From Chryseobacterium binzhouense (lineage in GTDB: Bacteria > Bacteroidota > Bacteroidia > Flavobacteriales > Weeksellaceae), in NCBI RefSeq assembly GCF_007474545.1, contig NZ_VKOG01000003.1, positions 1-64,000 on the forward strand: a stretch of DNA of 64,000 nucleotides. Reading direction: 5' to 3'. The position numbers and the translations under genes are program-made. This document shows, piece by piece, positions 2,206-18,092 of this stretch. The notes below the pieces were generated by a model, which saw nothing but the letters and a program-made list of their open reading frames with translations, searched no databases and was not told the DNA's origin. Within the stretch, counting starts at the first letter, position 1. Each line of letters opens with the position of its first letter.

Positions 2206-2604
2206 GGGGTTGACTGGTTTCGACAGCAAGACCAATGGATAAGTAAGCATGCAGAGAACCGCAGCGCAATCTCTTAAATCTTTTGCTGCGAAATTTTAAC
2301 TGGCAACGAAGAGTTCGCTCTTGCAGCTTAATATCGAAGTATAGTAGATCAAGCGTTTTCCCGAAGATGTTAGTAGGGAAGCAAGATATTCCACAAATGC
2401 TCTGTTCTGCGGCGTTTGATTCTGGGATATAGGAATGCGGAAATAAGGCTTTAGATGCTTCGGCTAAAGCTCGAAAACCTCAGAAGATAAGCTGGAAGTT
2501 GGGTGTCTGCTCTCTGCTTCCCGTCGAAAACCAATAGCAGAATAAGCATGTAGAAAGCTTATGTATTGCTTGTTTGGACGAGGGTTCGAATCCCTCCAAC
2601 TCCA
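2206..2604 (+). ncRNA. ssrA: Transfer-messenger RNA (tmRNA)
   Basis: A one-piece tmRNA that frees stalled ribosomes and tags the unfinished protein for degradation. The 5' end GGGGTTGACTGGTTTCGACA is the standard tmRNA start; it pairs with the 3' end CAACTCC plus discriminator A2604, and GGTTCGAATCC is the T-arm. The tag reading frame runs from about 2302 to 2331 and encodes GNEEFALAA before TAA, the usual bacteroidotal kind of tag ending in ALAA. CCA is not encoded. The last 16 bases are part of a 17-bp repeat found again at 18076-18092, so the 3' end serves as an integration site and has been rebuilt by the element to its right. Confidence 0.96.
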
Positions 2605-2605
2605 C
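2589..2605 (+). other. Attachment site in the ssrA 3' end (left end of element 1)
   Basis: AATCCCTCCAACTCCAC is identical to 18076-18092 and shares CCTCCAACTCCAC with 30130-30142, all in direct orientation. tmRNA 3' ends are well-known targets of tyrosine integrases, and an integrase gene begins 164 bp to the right. The crossover point inside the repeat cannot be placed by eye. Confidence 0.85.
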
Positions 2606-2742: not shown

Positions 2743-2750
2743 TATCTTTG
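2743..2750 (+). promoter_or_regulatory. -7 box of the element 1 integrase promoter
   Basis: TATCTTTG is a perfect TAnnTTTG box. It overlaps the TTG at 2748 where the open frame begins, which argues that translation starts at the ATG at 2769 instead. Just upstream lie TCCCC and ATCCCCTT (2721-2738), motifs that recur at the other end of the element and may be integrase arm sites, so the integrase may control its own promoter. Confidence 0.6.
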
Positions 2751-2768
2751 ATAGATAACCAGAGTTTT

Positions 2769-4031
2769 ATGGGGAATGTAAGTTTTGTTCTTAAAGAACC
2801 TAAGTCGATAAAAAAGACTTCAATTGTGCTAATATTTCGATACAGTAATCAAACTGTAAAAATTTATACGAAGCAATCTATTGAACCTATATTTTGGGAT
2901 AAATCTAAGCAGCGAGTAAGGCAGAGTTTGAAAGTAAATTCTGCAAAAATTAATTCGTTGCTGAATGAAATGGATTCAAAAATTGTAAAGTTGTATGATA
3001 AAGTTTTGGAAGACTATGAAAGAAATCCAGAGCCGAAGGAATTTAAAAATTTATTTGAGCTAGAATATTTTCAGAACAAACCTCAGTTTTCTAAAAGAAA
3101 AGTAAAACTTTTAATGGAGGTTTTTGATGAATACGGACAAAGAATGATTTCTGAAAACAAACCAAGCTCAGCGGACAAATACAGACAGGCTAAACAAAAT
3201 CTTTTAGATTTTTCTAAAGATTTAAGTTATAATGTTCAATTTGAAACAATGACAAATGAGTTTAGGAATCATTTTATTCACTATCTAAGGCATAATAAAA
3301 AATATGCAGAAACTACAATCCATCGAAAATTAAAATTCATAAAAACGATTGTACACTATGCTTTAGATTGTGGATACATCAGTGGAGTCAAGGTTAATCT
3401 TAGGAAATTCGGAGTTGCTGATGTTATTCCAGATAAAATTGCTCTAACACAAAACGAATTAAAGGAAATTGAAAATTTAGATCTAAGTCAAAATCTAAGA
3501 TTAGATAAAATCAGAGATAGATTTTTGATTGGTTGCTATACAGGACTGCGATTTTCAGATTTCATTAGACTTAACAAAAACCACATTATTGATGAAAGGT
3601 ATATTCAATTAAAGCAGGAAAAAACCAAAGACGTTAACACGCAACCATTTTGGAGTGAGGTTCGTAAAATTTTTGAAAAATACGATTATGAATTACCAAA
3701 ACCTATTTCTGAAAGTAACTTTAATCTTTATCTCAAAGAAATCTGCGGATTGTGTGACACTTTAAAAAAAGAACAGGAAATCACAGAATATGAAGGAGGG
3801 AAAGCAAAATCTGTTTACAAACCCAGATTTGAATTGGTAACCTCTCACACAGCCAGAAGAACCTTTGTTACACTAAAAGCGGAACAAGGATTAGCTCTGG
3901 AAGACATCGCTATAGCAACAGGACATAAAAACATTAAAACTTTACAGGGTTATATGAAGCTTGACGCAAAGCAGAAAGCGGATAGGTTGGCATTAATGAG
4001 TAAAAAAATATCAGAGAAAAATGGAAAATAG
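2769..4031 (+). CDS. Tyrosine integrase of element 1
   Basis: A 420-residue site-specific integrase that should catalyse insertion into the ssrA 3' end. It has an N-terminal arm-DNA-binding domain (about residues 5-90), a SAM-like core-binding domain (about 110-200) and a C-terminal catalytic domain with TGLRFSDF (Arg I), a middle lysine region, HTARRTF (His/Arg II), TGHKN and the nucleophile in LQGYMKLD. All catalytic positions are present, so it looks active. The start at 2769 was chosen because the frame's upstream TTG lies inside the promoter box. The next gene overlaps its last 11 bases. It resembles the integrases of Bacteroidota mobilisable elements and is clearly different from the broken integrase at 28760-29999. 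Confidence 0.93.
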   Translation: MGNVSFVLKEPKSIKKTSIVLIFRYSNQTVKIYTKQSIEPIFWDKSKQRVRQSLKVNSAKINSLLNEMDSKIVKLYDKVLEDYERNPEPKEFKNLFELEYFQNKPQFSKRKVKLLMEVFDEYGQRMISENKPSSADKYRQAKQNLLDFSKDLSYNVQFETMTNEFRNHFIHYLRHNKKYAETTIHRKLKFIKTIVHYALDCGYISGVKVNLRKFGVADVIPDKIALTQNELKEIENLDLSQNLRLDKIRDRFLIGCYTGLRFSDFIRLNKNHIIDERYIQLKQEKTKDVNTQPFWSEVRKIFEKYDYELPKPISESNFNLYLKEICGLCDTLKKEQEITEYEGGKAKSVYKPRFELVTSHTARRTFVTLKAEQGLALEDIAIATGHKNIKTLQGYMKLDAKQKADRLALMSKKISEKNGK

Positions 4032-7467: not shown

Positions 7468-8142
7468 ATGAAAAAATATATTGCCTATTACAGAGTTTCA
7501 ACAAAACAACAAGGAAGTTCTGGCTTGGGCTTAGATGCTCAAAAAACAATGGTCAGAAATTATCTCAAAGAAGATGATATGTTGATTGATGAGTTCGAGG
7601 AAGTGGAGAGTGGCAAAAATGACAACCGACCTCAGCTACTTACAGCCATAGAAAAAAGCAAGAGTGAAAGTGCAACCTTGCTCATCGCCAAATTAGATAG
7701 ACTTAGCCGTAATGCTGGGTTTATATTTTTACTGAAGGATAGCAATGTGGATTTCAAATGCTGTGATATGCCAGAGGCAAATTCGCTTACTATTGGGATA
7801 ATGGCTGTACTTGCACAGGAAGAACGTTTATTGATAAGTAAGCGTACTATTGATGCTTTGCAAGAACTAAAATCCAAAGGCGTAAAACTTGGCAACCCAA
7901 AGAATTTAACTCCAGAAGCCAGAAAGATGGGCAGTGAAGCGATGAGGTTAAAAGCTCTACACAATGACAACAATAGAAAGGCAACTGCACTAATAGTTTC
8001 TTTACGAAATGCAGGGAGTAGTTATGGCAAAATCGCAGATGAACTCAATAAGAGTGGTTTCAAGACCAGTAGAGGCTGTGAGTTTAGCTCATCTCAGACT
8101 CTGGTTTTGTATAACCGATTTTTGCAATGTCAAAATGCTTGA
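7468..8142 (+). CDS. Small serine recombinase (resolvase/invertase family)
   Basis: A 224-residue serine recombinase. The N-terminal catalytic domain has Arg9 and Ser11 in YYRVSTKQQ, the LDRLSRN motif near residue 74 and AVLAQEERLLISKRT leading into the long E helix. The C-terminus (about 165-220) is a helix-turn-helix of resolvase type (YGKIADELNKSGFKTSRG). Proteins of this size resolve circles or invert segments rather than integrate phages. A strongly structured DNA region follows 290 bp downstream and could be its target (inference). All catalytic residues I can check are present. Confidence 0.9.
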   Translation: MKKYIAYYRVSTKQQGSSGLGLDAQKTMVRNYLKEDDMLIDEFEEVESGKNDNRPQLLTAIEKSKSESATLLIAKLDRLSRNAGFIFLLKDSNVDFKCCDMPEANSLTIGIMAVLAQEERLLISKRTIDALQELKSKGVKLGNPKNLTPEARKMGSEAMRLKALHNDNNRKATALIVSLRNAGSSYGKIADELNKSGFKTSRGCEFSSSQTLVLYNRFLQCQNA

Positions 8143-9125: not shown

Positions 9126-9668
9126 ATGAACAAAAATTTTAAACATTTAGCTTCTGCCTCTGCATTCGCATTTTTCTTATTCATTGCTATGGGCAGTGGA
9201 GATGATAAAAAATCTTCAACAACATCATCTACCAGTTCTGCAAGTGCGGAAGCAGCCAGCTACAAGAAAGTAGGGGAAACTCTACCCACAGAATATTTTG
9301 ATGTAACAGTAAATACAGTGAATGTCAAAAACTCTGTTAGTACAGGAAATGAGTTTGTGGATTTATCTGCTGAATCAGGAACACGTTATCTCATTATTAA
9401 TACGACATTCAAGAACACAAGCAACGAGAGCCGTACACTAATAGATGGAGAAGTTTTGGTAAATTATAAAGGAAAGGATTACACATTTGACAAATCCGAA
9501 ACAATAATGTTAGATGGCTGGGGTTTGATGCTTGATCAAATCAATCCTCTTACAACCAAAACTACCAATTTAGTTTATAAAATTCCAGCAGAATTGATAG
9601 GAACGGCATTCTATAAGCCTGGACGTTCTGGAAGCGATGACTTGATTGATTTGGGTACAATTAACTAA
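9126..9668 (+). CDS. Exported DUF4352-like protein
   Basis: A 180-residue protein starting at ATG 9126 (MNKNFKHLASASAFAFFLFI), chosen over the upstream frame start because it begins a signal-peptide-like segment. A low-complexity Ser/Thr linker (about 28-45) is followed by a beta-rich domain resembling DUF4352: YFDVTVNTVNVKNSV, then RYLIINTTFKNTS, the usual extracellular immunoglobulin-like pattern. There is no lipobox cysteine. It probably forms a unit with the VanZ-like gene 4 bp upstream. A strong hairpin terminator follows. Confidence 0.6.
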   Translation: MNKNFKHLASASAFAFFLFIAMGSGDDKKSSTTSSTSSASAEAASYKKVGETLPTEYFDVTVNTVNVKNSVSTGNEFVDLSAESGTRYLIINTTFKNTSNESRTLIDGEVLVNYKGKDYTFDKSETIMLDGWGLMLDQINPLTTKTTNLVYKIPAELIGTAFYKPGRSGSDDLIDLGTIN

Positions 9669-9692: not shown

Positions 9693-9723
9693 TGCTGTTC
9701 TAATTTCAGAACAGCATTTTTTA
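9693..9723. terminator. Terminator upstream of the five-gene operon
   Basis: TGCTGTTCT-AATTTC-AGAACAGCA forms a 9-bp stem followed by six T. A runs on the left side suggest action on both strands. With the hairpin at 13711 it brackets the operon between. Confidence 0.85.
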
Positions 9724-9798: not shown

Positions 9799-10338
9799 AT
9801 GTTCAAAAATATTATTTTCATAGGAGGTATTCATGGAGTTGGAAAAAGTACAATTTGCAAACATATTTGCAGCGAATTATCTATGGAATATTTGTCCGCA
9901 AGCGAACTATTAAAATGGAACGGCATTAATCAAGATTCAAAAAATAAAAAGGTTAAAGACATTTCCGATAATCAAAACCGCCTAATTGTTGGGTTGGAAA
10001 ATATTATTCAGAAGGGTAAATTTTATTTGCTCGATGGGCACTATTGTCTACTCAATAGTAATAACGAAATTTTAAAAGTTCCAATAGAAACCTTTGAACA
10101 AATCAATTCGATTTCTTTTAATCTGGTTTTAGGTAATATCTCTGAGATTAAGCAACGCCTTGAAGCAAGAGACAACAAACCTTATGATTATGAATTACTA
10201 CAACATTTTCAGGATGAAGAATTGGCTTATGCAAAATATTTGTCGAAAAAATTTAATGTACCTTTGAATATTGGAGAAAATAACGATTATTTGAATATTT
10301 TGGAGTCACTTTGTAAAACAATTAAAAGGACTAATTAA
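9799..10338 (+). CDS. P-loop nucleotide kinase-like protein (operon gene 1)
   Basis: A 180-residue protein with a clear Walker A, GGIHGVGKST, at residues 8-17 and the compact layout of AAA_17/18-type adenylate-kinase-like enzymes, including FYLLDGHYCLL near residue 75 as a Walker B-like strand and QRLEARDNKPYD (about 118-130) as an LID-type arginine region. Such enzymes phosphorylate nucleotides or other small molecules. The frame opens at 9646, but ATG 9799 directly before the P-loop is the natural start. It is the first gene of a packed operon: the membrane protein follows 3 bp later. Its substrate is unknown. Confidence 0.8.
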   Translation: MFKNIIFIGGIHGVGKSTICKHICSELSMEYLSASELLKWNGINQDSKNKKVKDISDNQNRLIVGLENIIQKGKFYLLDGHYCLLNSNNEILKVPIETFEQINSISFNLVLGNISEIKQRLEARDNKPYDYELLQHFQDEELAYAKYLSKKFNVPLNIGENNDYLNILESLCKTIKRTN

Positions 10339-10341
10339 ATA

Positions 10342-11379
10342 ATGGAAAACTCTTTCTTCGTTTTTACAGATAAAAACAATCCCGTTCAATTAGAGCGTTT
10401 TCACATCTGCACATGGGAGTTTAACAACAACAGTTCGTTAGTTGAGTTTGGTTTTGAAATATCTAGAGATTCAATAAAAGATAATAATTTAACTATTTCT
10501 CTTTTTATCCCTTGGGTTACAAGGACTTGTGAAGCAAAAGATTTATATGAAAAACTGAGTATTCCAGAAAATAGTCGTTTTATTTTTAATGATTCGGTTG
10601 CAAGTACAGATTCATTGGATGGAGGGAGAAATAAATTAGGTGTTATTCATAAATTCAGCGGAAGGAATGAGCTCTGTATTTTACCTGTAAAGGTTGAAAT
10701 TGTGAACGAAAATTTAGTTTCAGCCACTTTAAACCTTCAACCTTATCAAGAATATAATTCAGATTCCAAACCAAATATTTATTTTCGATTTTGGATTAAA
10801 CCATCAGTGCCTTATATATCTATGAGAAAGAAGGGAATAAGTAAATCTACAATCATTTATGATATTAAGGTTAACGAACAAAGAAATATTCCGGATAATA
10901 AAATCTCTTATTTCAGCGACAAAGCACTATGTGCAATAAAGAATTGTTTTTCGTTTAATATTGTTCCTAACAAATATGATATTGTATTTTTTGATAACTC
11001 TTCCTTAAAGAATGTAAGAACTTTAGAATATGATTCTTTCAATAAATATTTAGGAGACAAGAGGGTTAAAAAAGATGAATTGATTGTCGTTTTTAATAAA
11101 AAGCAAAGTATTGAATCCTATTCTTTTTTCTCAATTTATTCAATGGAAAGAATAGGTACAGGGCAGTTTGCTTTGGCAATACTTATAAGTATTATTTGTG
11201 GTATACTATTATTTATTCCCTCTTATCGCAAGACTTTTAATCCTGAAATTTCATTTCTAAAAGTTTGGAACAAATTGCCCTTTGAGATTTACTTAGCAAT
11301 TACTATAGCATTTGGAATGATTATATACTTTGTTTTACCATGGTTAAAAAACATTTTATATAAAATTAGAAATTTATAA
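10342..11379 (+). CDS. Membrane-anchored protein of unknown function (operon gene 2)
   Basis: A 345-residue protein without a recognised domain. Residues 1 to about 270 are a soluble, beta-rich region with no signal peptide; two hydrophobic segments follow at about 276-294 (FALAILISIICGILLFI) and 317-338 (IYLAITIAFGMIIYFVL), so the soluble part would be cytoplasmic and tethered by a C-terminal hairpin. This layout is common among membrane effectors of bacterial immunity, but no effector family is recognised. It starts 3 bp after the kinase and ends 1 bp before the HEPN-like gene. Confidence 0.75.
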   Translation: MENSFFVFTDKNNPVQLERFHICTWEFNNNSSLVEFGFEISRDSIKDNNLTISLFIPWVTRTCEAKDLYEKLSIPENSRFIFNDSVASTDSLDGGRNKLGVIHKFSGRNELCILPVKVEIVNENLVSATLNLQPYQEYNSDSKPNIYFRFWIKPSVPYISMRKKGISKSTIIYDIKVNEQRNIPDNKISYFSDKALCAIKNCFSFNIVPNKYDIVFFDNSSLKNVRTLEYDSFNKYLGDKRVKKDELIVVFNKKQSIESYSFFSIYSMERIGTGQFALAILISIICGILLFIPSYRKTFNPEISFLKVWNKLPFEIYLAITIAFGMIIYFVLPWLKNILYKIRNL

Positions 11380-11380
11380 T

Positions 11381-11821
11381 ATGAGCGAAATATTTGATTG
11401 TCCAAAAGAAGAGATTTGGGAAAAACGTAGAATGTGGGTCTATGATGAATTAGAAAAAGCAGAAGTCGGGATTCACTCTGTGAGTGATCACTCTACTGCT
11501 CTTTTTATGGATTTGCAAAAAGCATTTTGTGCTGGTGCTTGGATTTCTGTAGTCGTAATGTCAATATCTGTTATTGATTCACATCTCCGAGAAGAAATTT
11601 CTGATAAGTCTATCGGTACGGCAAAGTTACTACAAGAATTCTATGAAGGAGAGGGGATAGACTGGCTAAGAAAACTACGAAACCGATATGTACATCATAA
11701 TATTGATAATCCTTTTCTTGAAACGAATTGTTGGTATGATGAGCAAACAAGTTTAGAAAAAGATGCTTACAAGGCAATGAGAATGACAATTTCTGCATTA
11801 TTTCAAAATCCATTTATATGA
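11381..11821 (+). CDS. HEPN-like protein (operon gene 3)
   Basis: A 146-residue, all-helical-looking protein. Near residues 104-109 it has RNRYVH, which fits the R-x4-6-H motif of HEPN ribonucleases, placed after helix WLRKL as in that fold; helices before it carry AGAWISVVVMSISVIDSHLR. HEPN proteins cut RNA in toxin-antitoxin and abortive-infection systems, and some are inactive partners. The stop overlaps the next start as ATGA, so translation is coupled to the PIN protein. The call rests on one motif and helix pattern. Confidence 0.6.
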   Translation: MSEIFDCPKEEIWEKRRMWVYDELEKAEVGIHSVSDHSTALFMDLQKAFCAGAWISVVVMSISVIDSHLREEISDKSIGTAKLLQEFYEGEGIDWLRKLRNRYVHHNIDNPFLETNCWYDEQTSLEKDAYKAMRMTISALFQNPFI

Positions 11822-13320
11822 AAGCACTACTAGATACTAACATTATAATTCACAGAGAAGCATCCAAAGTCATTAATCAGGATGTAGGTATATTATATCG
11901 TTGGCTGGAGCGTGCAAAATATACTAAATGCGTTCATTCCTTAACGATCGCTGAAATTGAGAAATACAAAAATCAACAGACAGTTGAAACTTTTCAAATA
12001 AAATTGGGCAGTTACGAACAATTAGAAATTCCATCACCTTTGCAAGAAGAAGTTAAAGTTATTTCAGAAAAAGTTGATGTTAATGATAATGATAAGAATG
12101 ACACACAACTATTAAACGAAGTATTTATTGGTCGAGTTGATATATTAATTACAGAAGATAAAAAAATTCGTAAAAAAGCCATTGAGTTAGGTATTGAAGA
12201 TAAAGTTTTTACTATAGATTCCTTTCTTGAAAAGACTTTTGCTGAACATCCAGATTTAGTAAATTATAAAATACTAAATGTTCAAAAGTTAAAATTCGGA
12301 AGAATAAATCTTGATGATGACTTTTTCGCAAGTTTAAAAGAAGATTATTACGGTTTTGATAAATGGTTCATTAAAAAATATGATGATGAGGCGTACATAA
12401 CTGTAAATTCTAACAATGGATTACTTCTTTCTTTTCTTTATCTAAAAGTTGAAGATAAAAGTGAAAGTTATGCAGATATAAGTCCTTTATTCATTCCAAA
12501 AAAACGATTAAAAGTTGGAACATTTAAAGTTATCAATAATGGTTTTCGCTTAGGTGAGCGGTTCATGAAAATTATTTTTGACAATGCCTTAAAGAATCAA
12601 GTGGATGAAATTTATGTAACAATTTTTGATAAAAGAGATGAGCAAAAAAGATTGATAGAGATGCTGCAGCAATGGGGATTTATTTTATGGGGAAAAAAAA
12701 ATGAGGAATTAGTTTACGTGAGAGATTTCAGCAAAAAAATTAATGAAAGCAATTTAAAGCATACTTACCCATTTATTTCAAGAAATAATGACTCTTACAT
12801 TGTACCAATTTATGAAGAATACCATACAGAATTATTGCCCGATTCAATTCTAAATACTGAATCTCCAGAAGATTTCGTAGAAGATTTCCCACATAGAAAT
12901 GCTATAAACAAAGTGTATGTTTCTCGTGCAATATTACCCCATCCCAAAAAAGGAGATAATATTATATTTTACATGACGGGAGGTTATTACAAAAGCGTTG
13001 TTTCTACAATTGGTATTGTTCAAGAAGTAAAAACCGATTTTACTGATGAAAATGATTTTATTATATATTGTAGAAAAAGAAGTGTTTTTCCAGAAGACAA
13101 ATTACTTGCAATATGGCGTTACAAAGACTCAAAGCCTTTCGTAGTTAGTTTTTTATATGTCTATTCATTCCCACATAGAATTAATATGAAGGAGCTAATC
13201 GATTTAAGGGTTTTAGGTGGTGTAAATGATGCCCCTAGAGGATTTAAGCCCATTACAAAAGAACAATTTAACATTATATTACAAGCAACAAAAAGCGATG
13301 AGAGTTTTATTATCGATTAA
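11818..13320 (+). CDS. PIN-GNAT-EVE/PUA-like fusion protein (operon gene 4)
   Basis: A 500-residue three-part protein. Residues 1-140 form a PIN nuclease domain: MKALLDTNIIIHRE with the first acidic residue, AEIEKY, NDTQLLNEV, and LITEDKKIRKKA with the last ones. Residues about 165-300 look like a GNAT acetyltransferase (LKVGTFKVINNGFRLGERFM, then YVTIFDKRDEQKRLIEML, QWGF). Residues about 360-490 look like an EVE/PUA-like domain (KGDNIIFYMTGGYYKSV, IGIVQEV). PIN domains cut RNA and EVE/PUA folds bind modified or structured nucleic acid. The combination recalls the COG4933-type neighbourhoods with ASCH proteins. It overlaps genes 3 (4 bp) and 5 (23 bp). Confidence 0.82.
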   Translation: MKALLDTNIIIHREASKVINQDVGILYRWLERAKYTKCVHSLTIAEIEKYKNQQTVETFQIKLGSYEQLEIPSPLQEEVKVISEKVDVNDNDKNDTQLLNEVFIGRVDILITEDKKIRKKAIELGIEDKVFTIDSFLEKTFAEHPDLVNYKILNVQKLKFGRINLDDDFFASLKEDYYGFDKWFIKKYDDEAYITVNSNNGLLLSFLYLKVEDKSESYADISPLFIPKKRLKVGTFKVINNGFRLGERFMKIIFDNALKNQVDEIYVTIFDKRDEQKRLIEMLQQWGFILWGKKNEELVYVRDFSKKINESNLKHTYPFISRNNDSYIVPIYEEYHTELLPDSILNTESPEDFVEDFPHRNAINKVYVSRAILPHPKKGDNIIFYMTGGYYKSVVSTIGIVQEVKTDFTDENDFIIYCRKRSVFPEDKLLAIWRYKDSKPFVVSFLYVYSFPHRINMKELIDLRVLGGVNDAPRGFKPITKEQFNIILQATKSDESFIID

Positions 13321-13666
13321 ACCAGAATTTGCATTCAAAATATTTGAAGGAGTTAAAAGATTTGAATTTCGTAAAGTAATTTTCAAAAACCCAAATGTAC
13401 GGACAGTAGTTGTATATGCATCTTCTCCTGTTCAACAAGTTATCGGAGAATTTGAAATTGACGATATATTAAGTTCTAATCCAAATGAAATTTGGGAACA
13501 AACAAAAAAATATTCTGGAATTTCAGAAGACTTTTTTTACGAATACTTTGCAGATAGAGAGATTGCTCACGCAATTAAAATAAAAGAAATTAAAAAATAT
13601 AAGACACCTCTTTCTTTAAAGGAGGATTTCAACGTTTTACCTCCACAATCATATTTATATTTGTGA
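13298..13666 (+). CDS. ASCH domain protein (operon gene 5)
   Basis: A 122-residue protein starting at ATG 13298, inside the end of the PIN fusion gene. It begins MRVLLSIKPEFAFKIFEGVK, the classic ASCH opening (I-K-P-x-x-A..I..G.K..EfR), with EFRKVIF following and VVVYASSPVQQVIGEFEI as the central strand pair. ASCH is a PUA-like RNA-binding fold often found beside PIN-GNAT proteins in genomic islands. The overlap points to coupled production with gene 4, so it may be its partner or antitoxin (inference). A strong terminator follows 44 bp downstream. Confidence 0.88.
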   Translation: MRVLLSIKPEFAFKIFEGVKRFEFRKVIFKNPNVRTVVVYASSPVQQVIGEFEIDDILSSNPNEIWEQTKKYSGISEDFFYEYFADREIAHAIKIKEIKKYKTPLSLKEDFNVLPPQSYLYL

Positions 13667-13710
13667 AAATTGGTTTCCTTTAGTAAAGAATATCAATAAG
13701 AAAAATTAAA

Positions 13711-13741
13711 TGCTGTCCTAAAACTAGGACAGCATTTTTTT
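13711..13741. terminator. Terminator after the five-gene operon
   Basis: TGCTGTCCTA-AAAC-TAGGACAGCA is a perfect 10-bp stem with a 4-base loop, followed by six T. It closes the operon that begins after the similar hairpin at 9693. Confidence 0.9.
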
Positions 13742-13805: not shown

Positions 13806-16800
13806 ATGAGATTTATAAATACAAATGACATAGAAATGTGGTCTAATAGTGTTGATTGCCAATGCCATTTACCACATTTAATTAGGAAATTGATTTTGGC
13901 AACCGCAGACCAAACTAAAATTAGAAGTATTCAGTTTCCCTACGGAGAAGATGTGCAAGTTGGCGGATATGATGGAGAACTTACAACAGAAGTTGGGAAT
14001 ATTTTTGTCCCTGATGGAGAAAGTGTGTGGGAGTTTGGTACAACCAATAAAAAAGGAGGAAAAGCAAATGATGACTACGATAAAAGAAAAAATAACCCAT
14101 TAGGAAAGATGTCATCACAAACAACTTATATAAATGTTAGTGCAAAAAAGTATCGAGATAAGAAGAAATGGGCAGATGAAAAAAAAGGAGAAAATTTTTG
14201 GAGAGATGTTAGATATTATGATGCTATTGATATTGAGCAATGGTTAGAGTTATCTCCTACTGTTGAGGTCTGGCTTGCAGAAAAATTAGGAAAGCCTATT
14301 ACAGGTATTTATACGCTTGATGAGTATTGGAGACGTTGGAGTGAAAATGGTAAAATAAAAATAGCTCCCGAAATCTTATTAGGTAATAGCAGGGAAAAAG
14401 AAATTGATTCATTAAAATCTTTTCTTAGCAATGACCAAAACAAATTGTATATAAAATCTAAAACTATAGATGAAGCGACAGCATTCCCATTGGCATTTTT
14501 AAGACATAATGAGAACGATTTTCAAAAAGCAATTGTTGTTATTGATAATCGGGAAACTTTTAGCAAATTTATTCAAAATGATGTCGCATCAATTATTTTA
14601 ATAAGATTTAAGGCGGAAGGCACAGACCTGTCTGGAGCAACACAAAGAGGACATAAATTAATCATTCCGATTAGTATGTCAGATGAGCCAACAGGTTCAG
14701 AAAAAATACAACTACCATTAGTATCGAGGGATACGTTTGAAAATGGATTAAAAAAAATGGGTGTTGATTCTGAAAAAGCACGTCTTCTCACAAAAAATTC
14801 AGGTAGAAATATTTCAGTACTAAAAAGGCTTCTCCAATTTGATGATAATACAAAACCAAAATATTTGAAAGATGCCGAAGTCTATGATATTCTTCCAATT
14901 CTTCTTGTTAACAAATTTTCTGAGCAGAGAGAAGGAGATAGAGAAATAATTGAAAAATTGAGTGGAAAACCTTTTGCAGAGTATATCAAGTTTTTGAAAG
15001 AATTAATTAATCTGGAAGATTCTCCAGTATATAGCATTAATGGAATTTGGCAGTTAGTATCTCCTCCTGATACTTGGTTATATTTTGCAAAATATATTAC
15101 AAAAGAACAACTTGAAATTTTTAAAGAAATATGTTTAACCGTTCTTAGTGAAACTCGTCATAAATACACTATTCCTTTAGAAAATAGAGGTATATATTTT
15201 GAAACCCCAGAAAATAGGTCTAAATATTCTTCTGAACTGAAGACTGGTTTGTCAGAAACATTAGCCATAATTTCTGTATTCGGCGAAGAGAATGGATTAA
15301 ATTCAATACTGAGTGTTATGTATTATGTGGATGGGATTGTGCAAAAAATTCTTGAAAATAATATTCTTGTATGGAGGTCATTGTCTCGTAACTTAATGAT
15401 TTTAGCAGAAGCCTCTCCAGATGTTTTTTTAACTAACCTTGAAAGAATAATAAAAGATAATTCCGCTAAAAGTTTCTTTGAAGAAGAAAAAAGTTTTATA
15501 GGGGGAAATGCTAATGACCTTCCCACTATTTTATGGTGCTTGGATATTATAGGTTGGATGCCTGAACATCTTCTAAGGGTTTCTATGTTGTTATGTGAAC
15601 TCATTAAATTATCTCCAGAAAAACTACCTACCTTAAATACGCCTATCAGTAGTTTACAAAGTCTTTATAGGGTCTGGTATCCACAAACAAATGCAAATGT
15701 AGAAGAGAGAAAGGTAATTCTTGAAATTTTAATTAAAAAACATCCCGAAATTGTATTTGAATTGTTACATCTTCTAATAGATAAAGGTTTTGATACTGCT
15801 TTTCATACGCCAAGACCAAAGTGGAGGTTGTTTTCAGAAATTAAAGAAATTAGAGTAACTCAACAGGAAGTTTTCTATATGAGAAACTTCTGTATAGATA
15901 ATTTTATTGTCCTATCAGAAAATAATTTAGAAAGAATTCTTATTCTTATTGATGTTCTTGATAAATTTTATTGGGATAAGATAGACGTTGCTCTAAAAAC
16001 AGTAGAAGATAGTTGGCAGAATTTCTCAGAAACAGACAGAAATATAATATATAATGAGTTTAGAAAACAAATTGGAAAACATAGAAGCCATCCAACAGCG
16101 AGATGGGTATTACCCCCAAATATCTTACAAAAGTTAGAAAATATTGCTTTCAAGTTCAAAAGTAAAGATGAAATATTATCTGATTCTTATCTATTTGAAG
16201 AACAATATCCAGAGTTTATAGAAGGAAAGCAAATTAGAAATTGGAAGAAAAACAATGATGAAATACTTCAACGGAGAATAACATTTGTTGAAAAAATAAT
16301 AGAGAAATATGGTGTAGTTAAAATTTTTGATATGGCAAACGAGACAGAACATCCGTATTTATATGGGAATACTTTAGCTCTATGCATGAATCTAACCGAT
16401 GATGATGTTTTATTAGTATATGGATTAATTGGCTCTCAAAATCAAAAACATTATTCTTTATCAAGTAACTTTATAAGAGGACGTGAAAGTAAAACAAGTT
16501 TGGATGTTCAAACGGAAATTCTATATAGATTAATAAAATCTGGAATTTCAAATCAAGCTATTGTAAATTTTTTATGTTCATTATGGGATAGCATTAATTT
16601 ATGGAAATTTGTTTCTGATTTGAATAATGAAGAAGTGGAAAAATTATTTTGGAAATCCAAGCAAGGTTTTTTATACGCTAATGATAAGATAGAACTTTTT
16701 TATGCCTTAAAAAAATTACAGCAATTTGGCAAAGCGATTACTTTTCTCAATACTTTGGGTTGGGGAGTATACAATCATAAAGAACGCCTAACATCAGAAG

Positions 16801-17609
16801 AAATCTTAAAATTTCTGGAAGATTTAAGATTTGAAAATTTTGATGACACAACTCATCTTGACCATTACCAATTCGAGCAGATATTAGAATTACTGTATTC
16901 AAGAAACGATTATGATATAGTGCGTGGTGCTAATATAGAAATGAAATATGCTTTTATATTCACAAATTCTGATTCTCATTCCCCAAAAAATCTTTATAAA
17001 TTGATGTCAGAAAAGCCAGATGAATATTTTGGATTTCTAGCTCAAATATATTTACCAGAGGATGAAAATTTAAGAGAACAAGAATTAGAAAAAATCAAGA
17101 ATAACCCAAGTTATCCAGAAGTATATAAAGCAGGATGGAAAATTATGGATTCTTTTGATATGATACCTAGTTTACTTGAGGATGGTTCTTTAAATGGAGA
17201 TGTGTTGAATAAATGGATGGAAGAAGTTAAAGAACTTGCTAAAATAAATTGTAGAGAAAAAATTACTGACATTAATATAGGACATCTACTAGCAAAGTAT
17301 CCTATTGATATATCAAAAAACAAAGGTTTTCCTAACGAAATTTATGAAGTATTAGAGGGGGATAATGCAAGTGATAAAATGAGGCAAGCATTTGAAATAC
17401 AAATTTCAAATAGTTTAGGAATGACAACAAGGGGTGCTTTTGATGGTGGAAGCATTGAGAGATATAGAGCTTCTTTTTTTGATAATCTTTTCAATGAAAC
17501 CAAATTAATATATCCAAAAGCATCCTCAATATTTAGAAGCCTTAGAGATAAATATTTATTGGATGCTAAAGATGAAGATGGGCAGGCATTATTAAGTAGT
17601 TTAGAATAG
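13806..17609 (+). CDS. Large STAND-like protein with N-terminal nuclease-like domain
   Basis: A 1267-residue soluble protein. Residues 1-170 look like a restriction-endonuclease-like domain: GGYDGEL near 53-59, SVWEFGT near 73-79, AKKYRDKKKW and YYDAIDIEQWLE, a conserved set that I associate with nuclease-type N-termini of large prokaryotic NTPase proteins. Residues about 190-370 resemble a STAND NTPase core (SRDTFENGLKKMG, then NSGRNISVLKRLL as the winged-helix/sensor part), but where a Walker A is expected the sequence reads LYIKSKTIDEATAF, with no GxxGxGKT. The remaining 900 residues are helical and repeat-like, as in sensor arms of Avs-type defence proteins. No known system name is assigned. 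It follows the five-gene operon in element 1. Confidence 0.72.
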   Translation: MRFINTNDIEMWSNSVDCQCHLPHLIRKLILATADQTKIRSIQFPYGEDVQVGGYDGELTTEVGNIFVPDGESVWEFGTTNKKGGKANDDYDKRKNNPLGKMSSQTTYINVSAKKYRDKKKWADEKKGENFWRDVRYYDAIDIEQWLELSPTVEVWLAEKLGKPITGIYTLDEYWRRWSENGKIKIAPEILLGNSREKEIDSLKSFLSNDQNKLYIKSKTIDEATAFPLAFLRHNENDFQKAIVVIDNRETFSKFIQNDVASIILIRFKAEGTDLSGATQRGHKLIIPISMSDEPTGSEKIQLPLVSRDTFENGLKKMGVDSEKARLLTKNSGRNISVLKRLLQFDDNTKPKYLKDAEVYDILPILLVNKFSEQREGDREIIEKLSGKPFAEYIKFLKELINLEDSPVYSINGIWQLVSPPDTWLYFAKYITKEQLEIFKEICLTVLSETRHKYTIPLENRGIYFETPENRSKYSSELKTGLSETLAIISVFGEENGLNSILSVMYYVDGIVQKILENNILVWRSLSRNLMILAEASPDVFLTNLERIIKDNSAKSFFEEEKSFIGGNANDLPTILWCLDIIGWMPEHLLRVSMLLCELIKLSPEKLPTLNTPISSLQSLYRVWYPQTNANVEERKVILEILIKKHPEIVFELLHLLIDKGFDTAFHTPRPKWRLFSEIKEIRVTQQEVFYMRNFCIDNFIVLSENNLERILILIDVLDKFYWDKIDVALKTVEDSWQNFSETDRNIIYNEFRKQIGKHRSHPTARWVLPPNILQKLENIAFKFKSKDEILSDSYLFEEQYPEFIEGKQIRNWKKNNDEILQRRITFVEKIIEKYGVVKIFDMANETEHPYLYGNTLALCMNLTDDDVLLVYGLIGSQNQKHYSLSSNFIRGRESKTSLDVQTEILYRLIKSGISNQAIVNFLCSLWDSINLWKFVSDLNNEEVEKLFWKSKQGFLYANDKIELFYALKKLQQFGKAITFLNTLGWGVYNHKERLTSEEILKFLEDLRFENFDDTTHLDHYQFEQILELLYSRNDYDIVRGANIEMKYAFIFTNSDSHSPKNLYKLMSEKPDEYFGFLAQIYLPEDENLREQELEKIKNNPSYPEVYKAGWKIMDSFDMIPSLLEDGSLNGDVLNKWMEEVKELAKINCREKITDINIGHLLAKYPIDISKNKGFPNEIYEVLEGDNASDKMRQAFEIQISNSLGMTTRGAFDGGSIERYRASFFDNLFNETKLIYPKASSIFRSLRDKYLLDAKDEDGQALLSSLE

Positions 17610-18075: not shown

Positions 18076-18092
18076 AATCCCTCCAACTCCAC
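18076..18092 (+). other. Attachment site between element 1 and element 2
   Basis: AATCCCTCCAACTCCAC, a 17-bp exact copy of the ssrA 3' end (2589-2605) in the same orientation, with no tmRNA sequence upstream of it. It marks the right end of element 1 and the left end of element 2. Confidence 0.85.

Follow-up and report, generated by a model that had tools for sequence, protein, structure and literature searches.

A compact run of five genes in Chryseobacterium binzhouense, lying in the 64,000-nucleotide stretch of DNA that we analysed (the window), raises the question of whether a P-loop kinase (K), a membrane protein (M), a HEPN-like protein (H), a PIN-GNAT-EVE fusion (P) and an ASCH protein (A) belong together, and of what such a set would do. 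The sequence-only reading of this stretch had taken them for one coupled set in a mobile element, and possibly for a phage-defence system. From the comparisons described here, we consider it probable (roughly 0.6) that they form an accessory-rich (PIN)-GNAT-EVE/ASCH/AAA_17 operon, of the PDC-M11 type and GevTA-like, that acts as a toxin–antitoxin-type phage-defence unit in a tmRNA-integrated island.

Organization of the operon and its island

The five genes are tightly packed, the gaps K/M/H/P/A being +3, +1, −4 and −23 bp when recomputed from the coordinates (Table 1), exactly as had been claimed, and both of the flanking terminators of the sequence-only reading were recovered as hairpins. 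Between positions 9400 and 13900 there are four terminator-like sites (one being the same hairpin on the opposite strand), against 1.3 ± 1.2 in shuffled sequences. The operon is carried on an island of 15.5 kb situated at the tmRNA gene, and the assignment to a mobile element is borne out by a tyrosine integrase and by 17 bp from the tmRNA 3′ end that recur as a direct repeat. None of the seven other scanned proteins of the island gave a PADLOC match, which counts against the defence reading.

Table 1. Positions of the operon genes, flanking hairpins and island features in the window.
Feature	Position	Strand	Description
Left copy of att-like 17-bp direct repeat	2589..2605	+	3′ end of the tmRNA gene
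Island tyrosine integrase	2748..4031	+	Phage_integrase, E 8.6e-11
Terminator-like hairpin upstream of the operon	9693..9716	+	TGCTGTTCT stem; folding z = -4.0
K	9799..10338	+	179-aa P-loop kinase-like protein (AAA_17)
M	10342..11379	+	345-aa protein, two C-terminal hydrophobic segments, no known family
H	11381..11821	+	146-aa HEPN-like protein, variable slot between M and P
P	11818..13320	+	500-aa PIN-GNAT-EVE fusion (PDC-M11A; GNAT-EVE part GevT-like)
A	13298..13666	+	122-aa ASCH protein (PDC-M11B; GevA-like), 23-bp overlap with P
Terminator-like hairpin downstream of the operon	13708..13737	+	TGCTGTCCTA stem; z = -8.1; scored on both strands
Right copy of att-like 17-bp direct repeat	18076..18092	+	copy of the tmRNA 3′ end

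The P and A proteins

P matches the PADLOC profile PDC-M11A over residues 1–499 (E 2.6e-211); in PADLOC, PDC-M11 has the status of a candidate defence system. Its EVE domain scores above the Pfam cut-off (E 9.8e-6), the PIN part gives a sub-threshold match to PIN_3 (E 4.6e-4), and the GNAT part is identified by PHROG 13728 ‘acetyltransferase’ (residues 157–297, E 5.2e-21) and by the published family. Four residues that we take, from the PIN family, to be the active-site acids (Asp6, Asp92, Asp95 and Asp114) are near-invariant in a 25-row alignment of P. The conservation list and the P tree built on these rows leave out L013, L031, L038 and L041, in which P is frameshifted, PIN-less or truncated by the contig end. 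P had no match among PDB sequences, and no relative was confirmed in viral_contigs. A matches PDC-M11B (E 1.6e-51) and lies just above the Pfam cut-off for ASCH (E 2e-4); a homologue of A is present at 29/29 P loci. This count leaves out L053 (G774), which is on the same contig as L008 and identical to it across three sampled stretches, and because the 29 loci include close relatives (for example L029/L030/L047, L036/L054 and L041/L042), counts over them are not independent. The sequence features of PDC-M11 are all present in the operon, namely a GNAT-EVE protein, an adjacent ASCH gene, an AAA_17 gene and the PIN acids, the AAA_17 gene being frequent rather than obligatory in operons of this type.

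The sequence-only reading had regarded the union with a P-loop kinase as new, but the main text of Bell et al. (2020, PMC7641849) already describes (PIN)-GNAT-EVE proteins accompanied by ASCH and often also by AAA_17, so that our operon shares with theirs the fusion protein, the ASCH partner, the kinase and nearby restriction or defence genes. That text, to which the figures and supplements may add, mentions no membrane protein, HEPN or HNH gene in such operons: the words ‘HEPN’ and ‘transmembrane’ are absent from it, and the sole ‘HNH’ refers to EVE-HNH fusions. In the literature that we searched, Bell et al. was the only relevant paper; no experimental work on the PDC-M11/(PIN)-GNAT-EVE family was found, nor any system combining HEPN and HNH with PIN-GNAT.

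A second comparison is provided by Escherichia phage PhiR47_2 (PV340567.1), in which the homologues are annotated as GevT toxin and GevA antitoxin, a GenBank label for which our literature search found no underlying publication. The 357-residue GevT is 38% identical to the GNAT-EVE part of P (residues 159–499) and GevA is 55% identical to A, and the gevT/gevA-type overlap is also 23 bp. The phage has lambda-type genes and carries the pair downstream of cI. This pair, known here from the record annotation alone, has no PIN, K, M or H, whereas the P operon has all four. PIN-less GNAT-EVE forms occur in phages, so that some members of the family may work for the phage and not for its host.

Homologues of P adjoin known defence genes at five of the examined loci (Ssp/Pbe, type I RM, type II RM, ThsA-like and PD-Lambda-4_A), and at L042 P and ASCH-K sit between the HsdS and HsdR genes. 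Together with the PDC-M11 match, these neighbours back the view of the operon as mobile and of defence type.

The kinase and the membrane protein

K belongs to Pfam AAA_17 (E 1.4e-11) and has an intact Walker A motif, GIHGVGKST. Its PADLOC matches are weak (PDC-M51B, 1.5e-6, and VakA, 3.4e-6), and its matches among PDB sequences are adenylate and nucleotide kinases, the best of them at E 0.0041. A K homologue is present at 19/29 P loci, in three of them as one protein with ASCH, and was not found at the other ten (P being at the contig start in L038 and L057); K is therefore not indispensable everywhere.

M consists of an N-terminal part of ∼265 residues followed, by hydropathy, by hydrophobic segments at about 270–297 and 312–339. 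It has no Pfam match above cut-off and no matches in PADLOC, NCBIfam or PHROG; PDB sequences gave one chance-level match (E 0.41), plasmids and phages gave none, and no relative was confirmed in viral_contigs. Six homologues of M were found outside the window, with P and A adjoining M in all six and the order K-M-P-A in five, although five of these loci (L009–L013) were sampled on account of carrying M. A passenger role for M unrelated to P is not favoured, P being present at 6/6 M loci. In two congeners, a distant homologue, M2, lies between P and A; it occurs in 2/173 genomes of the genus, both times adjoining P. Homology between M and M2 is indicated by profile matches in both directions, with 0/2000 shuffles equally good, but hhalign gives a probability of just 5.5% (E 0.007). 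In the P tree (25 rows), one clade (100/99) carries M or M2 in eight of its nine members; of these eight, four entered via M alone and one is the window. We found no earlier description of M as a partner of (PIN)-GNAT-EVE operons, the main text of Bell et al. (PMC7641849) included.

The idea of one coupled set is thus upheld for K-M-P-A, by five other loci, and not for H, which was found at no other locus. Likewise, when the five-gene order was sought in other genomes, the exact set was found in the window only. What recurs is the four-gene set, together with the slot between M and P.

The gene between M and P

The motif definition of HEPN RNases is R-x4-6-H, and H has Arg100-x4-His105. However, its match to HEPN_Cthe2314 (residues 78–123, E 0.066) scores 13.6 bits against a curated cut-off of 27.1, and we therefore call it HEPN-like rather than class it as HEPN; in NCBIfam it matches PRK06630 below cut-off (E 0.0072). 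HEPN RNase toxins likewise are small proteins with R-x4-H, but no MNT partner is found among the five genes and the profile score of H is below cut-off. No homologue was found: the hits at 1/29 P loci and in 1/395 genomes of the phylum are the window's own, which rules H out as a conserved member of the set, and it is by position that H counts as part of the operon. Plasmids and phages gave no match, no relative was confirmed in viral_contigs, and PDB sequences gave one chance-level match (E 1.1). The proposal of two RNases in the operon is unproven: the PIN acids of P are conserved, but it is solely by its motif that H resembles HEPN. We found no earlier description of H as a member of such operons, and the main text of Bell et al. 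(PMC7641849) has no HEPN gene.

The position that H occupies is variable. The M–P slot holds an HNH_5 nuclease in L010 and L011 and a remnant of an HNH tail in L009, and HNH also adjoins P in L033 (broken) and L056.

Proposed mechanism and alternatives

In the mechanism that we propose, P would be the effector: its EVE domain would recognise a modified base, whether in tRNA, in rRNA or in the nucleic acid of a phage, with the PIN domain cleaving RNA and the GNAT domain acetylating. A, encoded by the overlapping gene, would keep P inactive in the uninfected cell, and K may phosphorylate or otherwise sense A, P or a nucleotide and so set the switch. M may tether the complex to the inner membrane, or act there, and the slot gene (the HEPN-like putative RNase here, the HNH nuclease in relatives) would contribute a further nuclease activity that can be exchanged. 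On infection, the phage would disturb A and free P, causing growth arrest ahead of phage release.

The same domains would also suit nucleic-acid modification, with GNAT acetylating a base or aminoacyl-tRNA, K phosphorylating a base or precursor, EVE and ASCH reading the mark, and PIN and the slot nuclease cutting un- or wrongly marked nucleic acid in a restriction-modification-like manner. Bell et al. (PMC7641849) place EVE and ASCH in one superfamily of base readers and cite the proposal of Iyer et al. (2013) that these proteins acetylate DNA bases; the L042 arrangement and a slot able to hold an HNH nuclease point the same way. Yet the operon genes include no base-hydroxylating or methylating enzyme recognisable in Pfam, PADLOC or NCBIfam, and in the phage the overlapping GNAT-EVE/ASCH pair occurs on its own, with no K, M or H, as would be expected of a toxin–antitoxin pair. 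PIN and HEPN, moreover, are RNA-directed folds, and we judge this explanation unlikely. Still less probable, in our estimate, is a plain addiction module in which the toxin–antitoxin pair stabilizes the 15.5-kb island and K, M and H are passengers of the mobile element: the location on an integrative island, the ten loci at which K was not found and the single occurrence of H would fit it, but M and M2 were found only adjoining P, and homologues lie inside or beside defence loci.

A narrower doubt, compatible with the defence reading for the other four genes, concerns H, which might be an antitoxin, an adaptor or unrelated cargo in a tolerant M–P gap rather than a nuclease effector. Besides the missing homologues and the HEPN score below cut-off, its GC content of 0.349 is above that of every 441-bp window of the remaining operon (0/284 overlapping windows as high), although in the island as a whole 114/1576 windows reach this value, which is not outside the island's range, and the GC3 of H does not depart from the range seen in its neighbours. 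Set against this are the intact R-x4-H, the tight junctions (+1 and −4 bp) and the different nuclease at the same position in two relatives, so that we hold a non-nuclease H to be possible, though not the better supposition.

A wider interpretation, which we advance tentatively, sees PIN-GNAT-EVE/ASCH/kinase operons as a modular immune platform in which a conserved trigger (P-A-K) is joined to a family of membrane partners dedicated to it (M/M2) and to a slot that swaps HEPN-like RNases and HNH nucleases as second effectors. If so, a single sensor would be able to set off the cleavage of RNA or of DNA, or an action at the membrane. With these comparisons, the computationally predicted defence family has a membrane partner that recurs among its loci and a nuclease position whose occupant can change, and whether the kinase, the membrane protein and the second nuclease are parts of an immune response or passengers can now be tested concretely.

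Layout of the operon and its island

The sequence-only reading had proposed a compact operon between two terminators, and this layout proved sound: the genes for K (AAA_17 kinase-like), M (a protein with two hydrophobic C-terminal segments), H (HEPN-like, with R100-x4-H105), P (a PIN-GNAT-EVE fusion) and A (an ASCH protein) lie closely spaced or overlapping on one strand, with a hairpin on either flank. The island that carries them lies at the tmRNA gene, which a tyrosine integrase gene follows; a 17-bp copy of the tmRNA 3' end delimits the island, which spans ~15.5 kb. The 1267-aa protein encoded directly behind the operon, within the island, matched nothing in Pfam, NCBIfam or PADLOC at E values up to 1 and had no homologue in the ORFs of the 28 other P loci described below; it is possibly an unclassified defence gene. 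The serine recombinase encoded upstream of the operon has, as judged by eye, counterparts upstream in both loci carrying the protein termed M2 below (L027, 5170-5739; L046, 4697-5350), the window and L027 proteins showing a weak likeness (E 9.9e-5).

Features of the operon and its surroundings in the window
Feature	Position	Remarks
Serine recombinase	7468-8142	Resolvase domain
Terminator-like hairpin	9693-9716	flank of operon
K	9799-10338	same strand as M, H, P and A
M	10342-11379	gap after K +3 bp
H	11381-11821	gap after M +1 bp
P	11818-13320	overlaps H, gap -4 bp
A	13298-13666	overlaps P, gap -23 bp
Terminator-like hairpin	13708-13737	other flank of operon
1267-aa protein	13806-17609	+ strand
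Repeat of tmRNA 3' end	18076-18092	17 bp

P, A and K as a known set

Over its whole length P matched the PADLOC phage-defence candidate PDC-M11A (E 2.6e-211) and A matched PDC-M11B (E 1.6e-51), while K gave weak PADLOC matches (best PDC-M51B, 1.5e-6, and VakA, 3.4e-6). Pfam placed EVE in P, ASCH in A and AAA_17 in K, and PHROG 13728 backed the acetyltransferase part of P. A P homologue was found by tblastn in 16 of 50,697 phage records; the first among the phage matches listed, Escherichia phage PhiR47_2 (PV340567.1), carries an annotated toxin, GevT, and antitoxin, GevA. GevT is 38% identical to the GNAT-EVE part of P and GevA 55% identical to A, and both gene pairs share a 23-bp overlap. The relevant passages of Bell et al. 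2020 (PMC7641849) describe (PIN)-GNAT-EVE operons as accompanied by ASCH, often with AAA_17, and view them as toxin-antitoxin or defence units. Taken with those passages, the PADLOC matches and the likeness to GevT/GevA therefore identify three of the five genes as a known set. The earlier interpretation, of a possible phage-defence system in a new combination, was half right: a candidate defence operon it is, but P, A and K were, going by the same passages, already known together.

Occurrence of the set

P occurred in six of 59 relatives, seven of 174 genus genomes, 12 of 395 order genomes and 12 of 395 phylum genomes, in overlapping draws that all include the genome of the window. M and H each turned up in one of the 395 phylum genomes, the window's own. 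Scanning genome contigs for M gave six loci out of 32 candidate stretches and, with 22 from further genomes and the window, these make 29 distinct P loci (duplicate L053 left out). A was found in all 29 and K in 19. In three loci ASCH and K form a single protein immediately 3' of P (with P read on +: L039, 7647-8624; L041, 1319-2269; L042, 7663-8613), a fusion that links the kinase to its ASCH partner. M was present in seven of the 29, namely the window and the six loci taken in because of M. In those six, P and A always lie downstream of M, and K immediately upstream in five (no K was found in L012); frameshifts break M and P in L013. The proposed five-gene set thus survives in part: K-M-P-A recurs in five other loci, but H in none of the 28.

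In L030 (7965-10229) and L047 (7876-10140), K-P-A is directly followed by three genes, for 464, 118 and 177 aa, possibly another accessory set; the 177-aa protein has a hydrophobic N-terminus by eye, and the 464-aa protein had no PADLOC match.

The putative membrane partner

Neither M nor H matched PADLOC; M had no Pfam family above cut-off and H a sub-threshold HEPN match. For M, as the putative membrane partner of a PDC-M11-type operon, we found no description. Two congeners (L027 and L046) show the order K-P-[306 or 310 aa]-A, and the M profile matched this additional protein, M2, at E 0.00067 in L027 and 0.027 in L046 (0.00076 for the best domain). A profile search in the opposite direction recovered five of the six intact M proteins among 1253 ORFs at 4e-5 to 8e-4, the M of L010 scoring 0.14, below a 63-aa chance ORF at 0.048. 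None of 2000 shuffled copies reached the real scores. M2 is likely rather than certainly a distant homologue of M, because hhalign on the shallow alignments gave a probability of only 5.5% (E 0.007). M2 occurred in two of 173 genus genomes, adjoining P in both.

A tree built from 25 P proteins contains a nine-member clade (100/99) made up of six M loci, both M2 loci, placed among the M rows, and L032, without M and M2. This share is partly by construction, since L009-L012 entered solely via M; among the clade members found by P searches alone (L008, from genome G774, L027, L046 and L032), three of four have M or M2.

A variable slot between M and P

The M-P junction in the window's clade holds an HNH gene, a HEPN-like gene or nothing. 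HNH_5 proteins occupy it in L010 (279 aa, 2.7e-13) and L011 (276 aa, 7e-12), L009 retains a fragment 75% identical to the HNH C-terminus across 44 residues, and the junction is free of genes in L008, L012 and L013. Outside the clade, L033 has a broken HNH_5 gene (1.3e-9) between P and A, and L056 an HNH relative upstream of P that shares 40% identity with those of L010 and L011; HNH recurrence around P is therefore independent of M. The GC content of H (0.349) was above that of every 441-bp window of the remaining operon (0 of 284 overlapping windows), which fits, but does not prove, a recent arrival; 114 of 1576 windows of the whole island were as high, and GC3 was not unusual.

Defence neighbourhood

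In L008 (7898-17881), K-M-P-A lies downstream of a gene for SspB and a 224-aa fragment of SspC, which covers only the first fifth of that protein's profile, with PbeA further downstream, as if K-M-P-A and an HNH_4 gene had been inserted into a phosphorothioate-type defence locus. P and the ASCH-K fusion of L042 are encoded between HsdS and HsdR in a type I restriction-modification locus, and other P loci adjoin a type II restriction-modification pair (L055), a ThsA-like protein (L030) and a PD-Lambda-4_A homologue (L027). Two sets of ten neighbouring proteins gave three and seven defence-type matches (CorA-like, TPR and no-hit rows uncounted); the proteins being hand-picked, these indicate occurrence, not a rate. 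In the window, PADLOC matched none of the four proteins flanking the operon within the island and none of nine further proteins (three inside it, six beyond).

Proposed working

P is probably the effector, because it combines GNAT with a PIN domain whose acidic residues (D6, D92, D95 and D114) are near-invariant; it would act through both, aimed by EVE. A, from the overlapping gene, is probably its inhibitor, as the GevT/GevA annotation implies. K is probably catalytically active, because its Walker A motif and LDGH residues show almost no variation across the 19 K proteins, and probably works on or with A, because the two are fused in some genomes. M would place the complex at the membrane or act there, and H or HNH would contribute nuclease activity. 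K-M-H-P-A is best read as a known candidate defence operon to which a putative membrane partner and a variable nuclease slot have been added.
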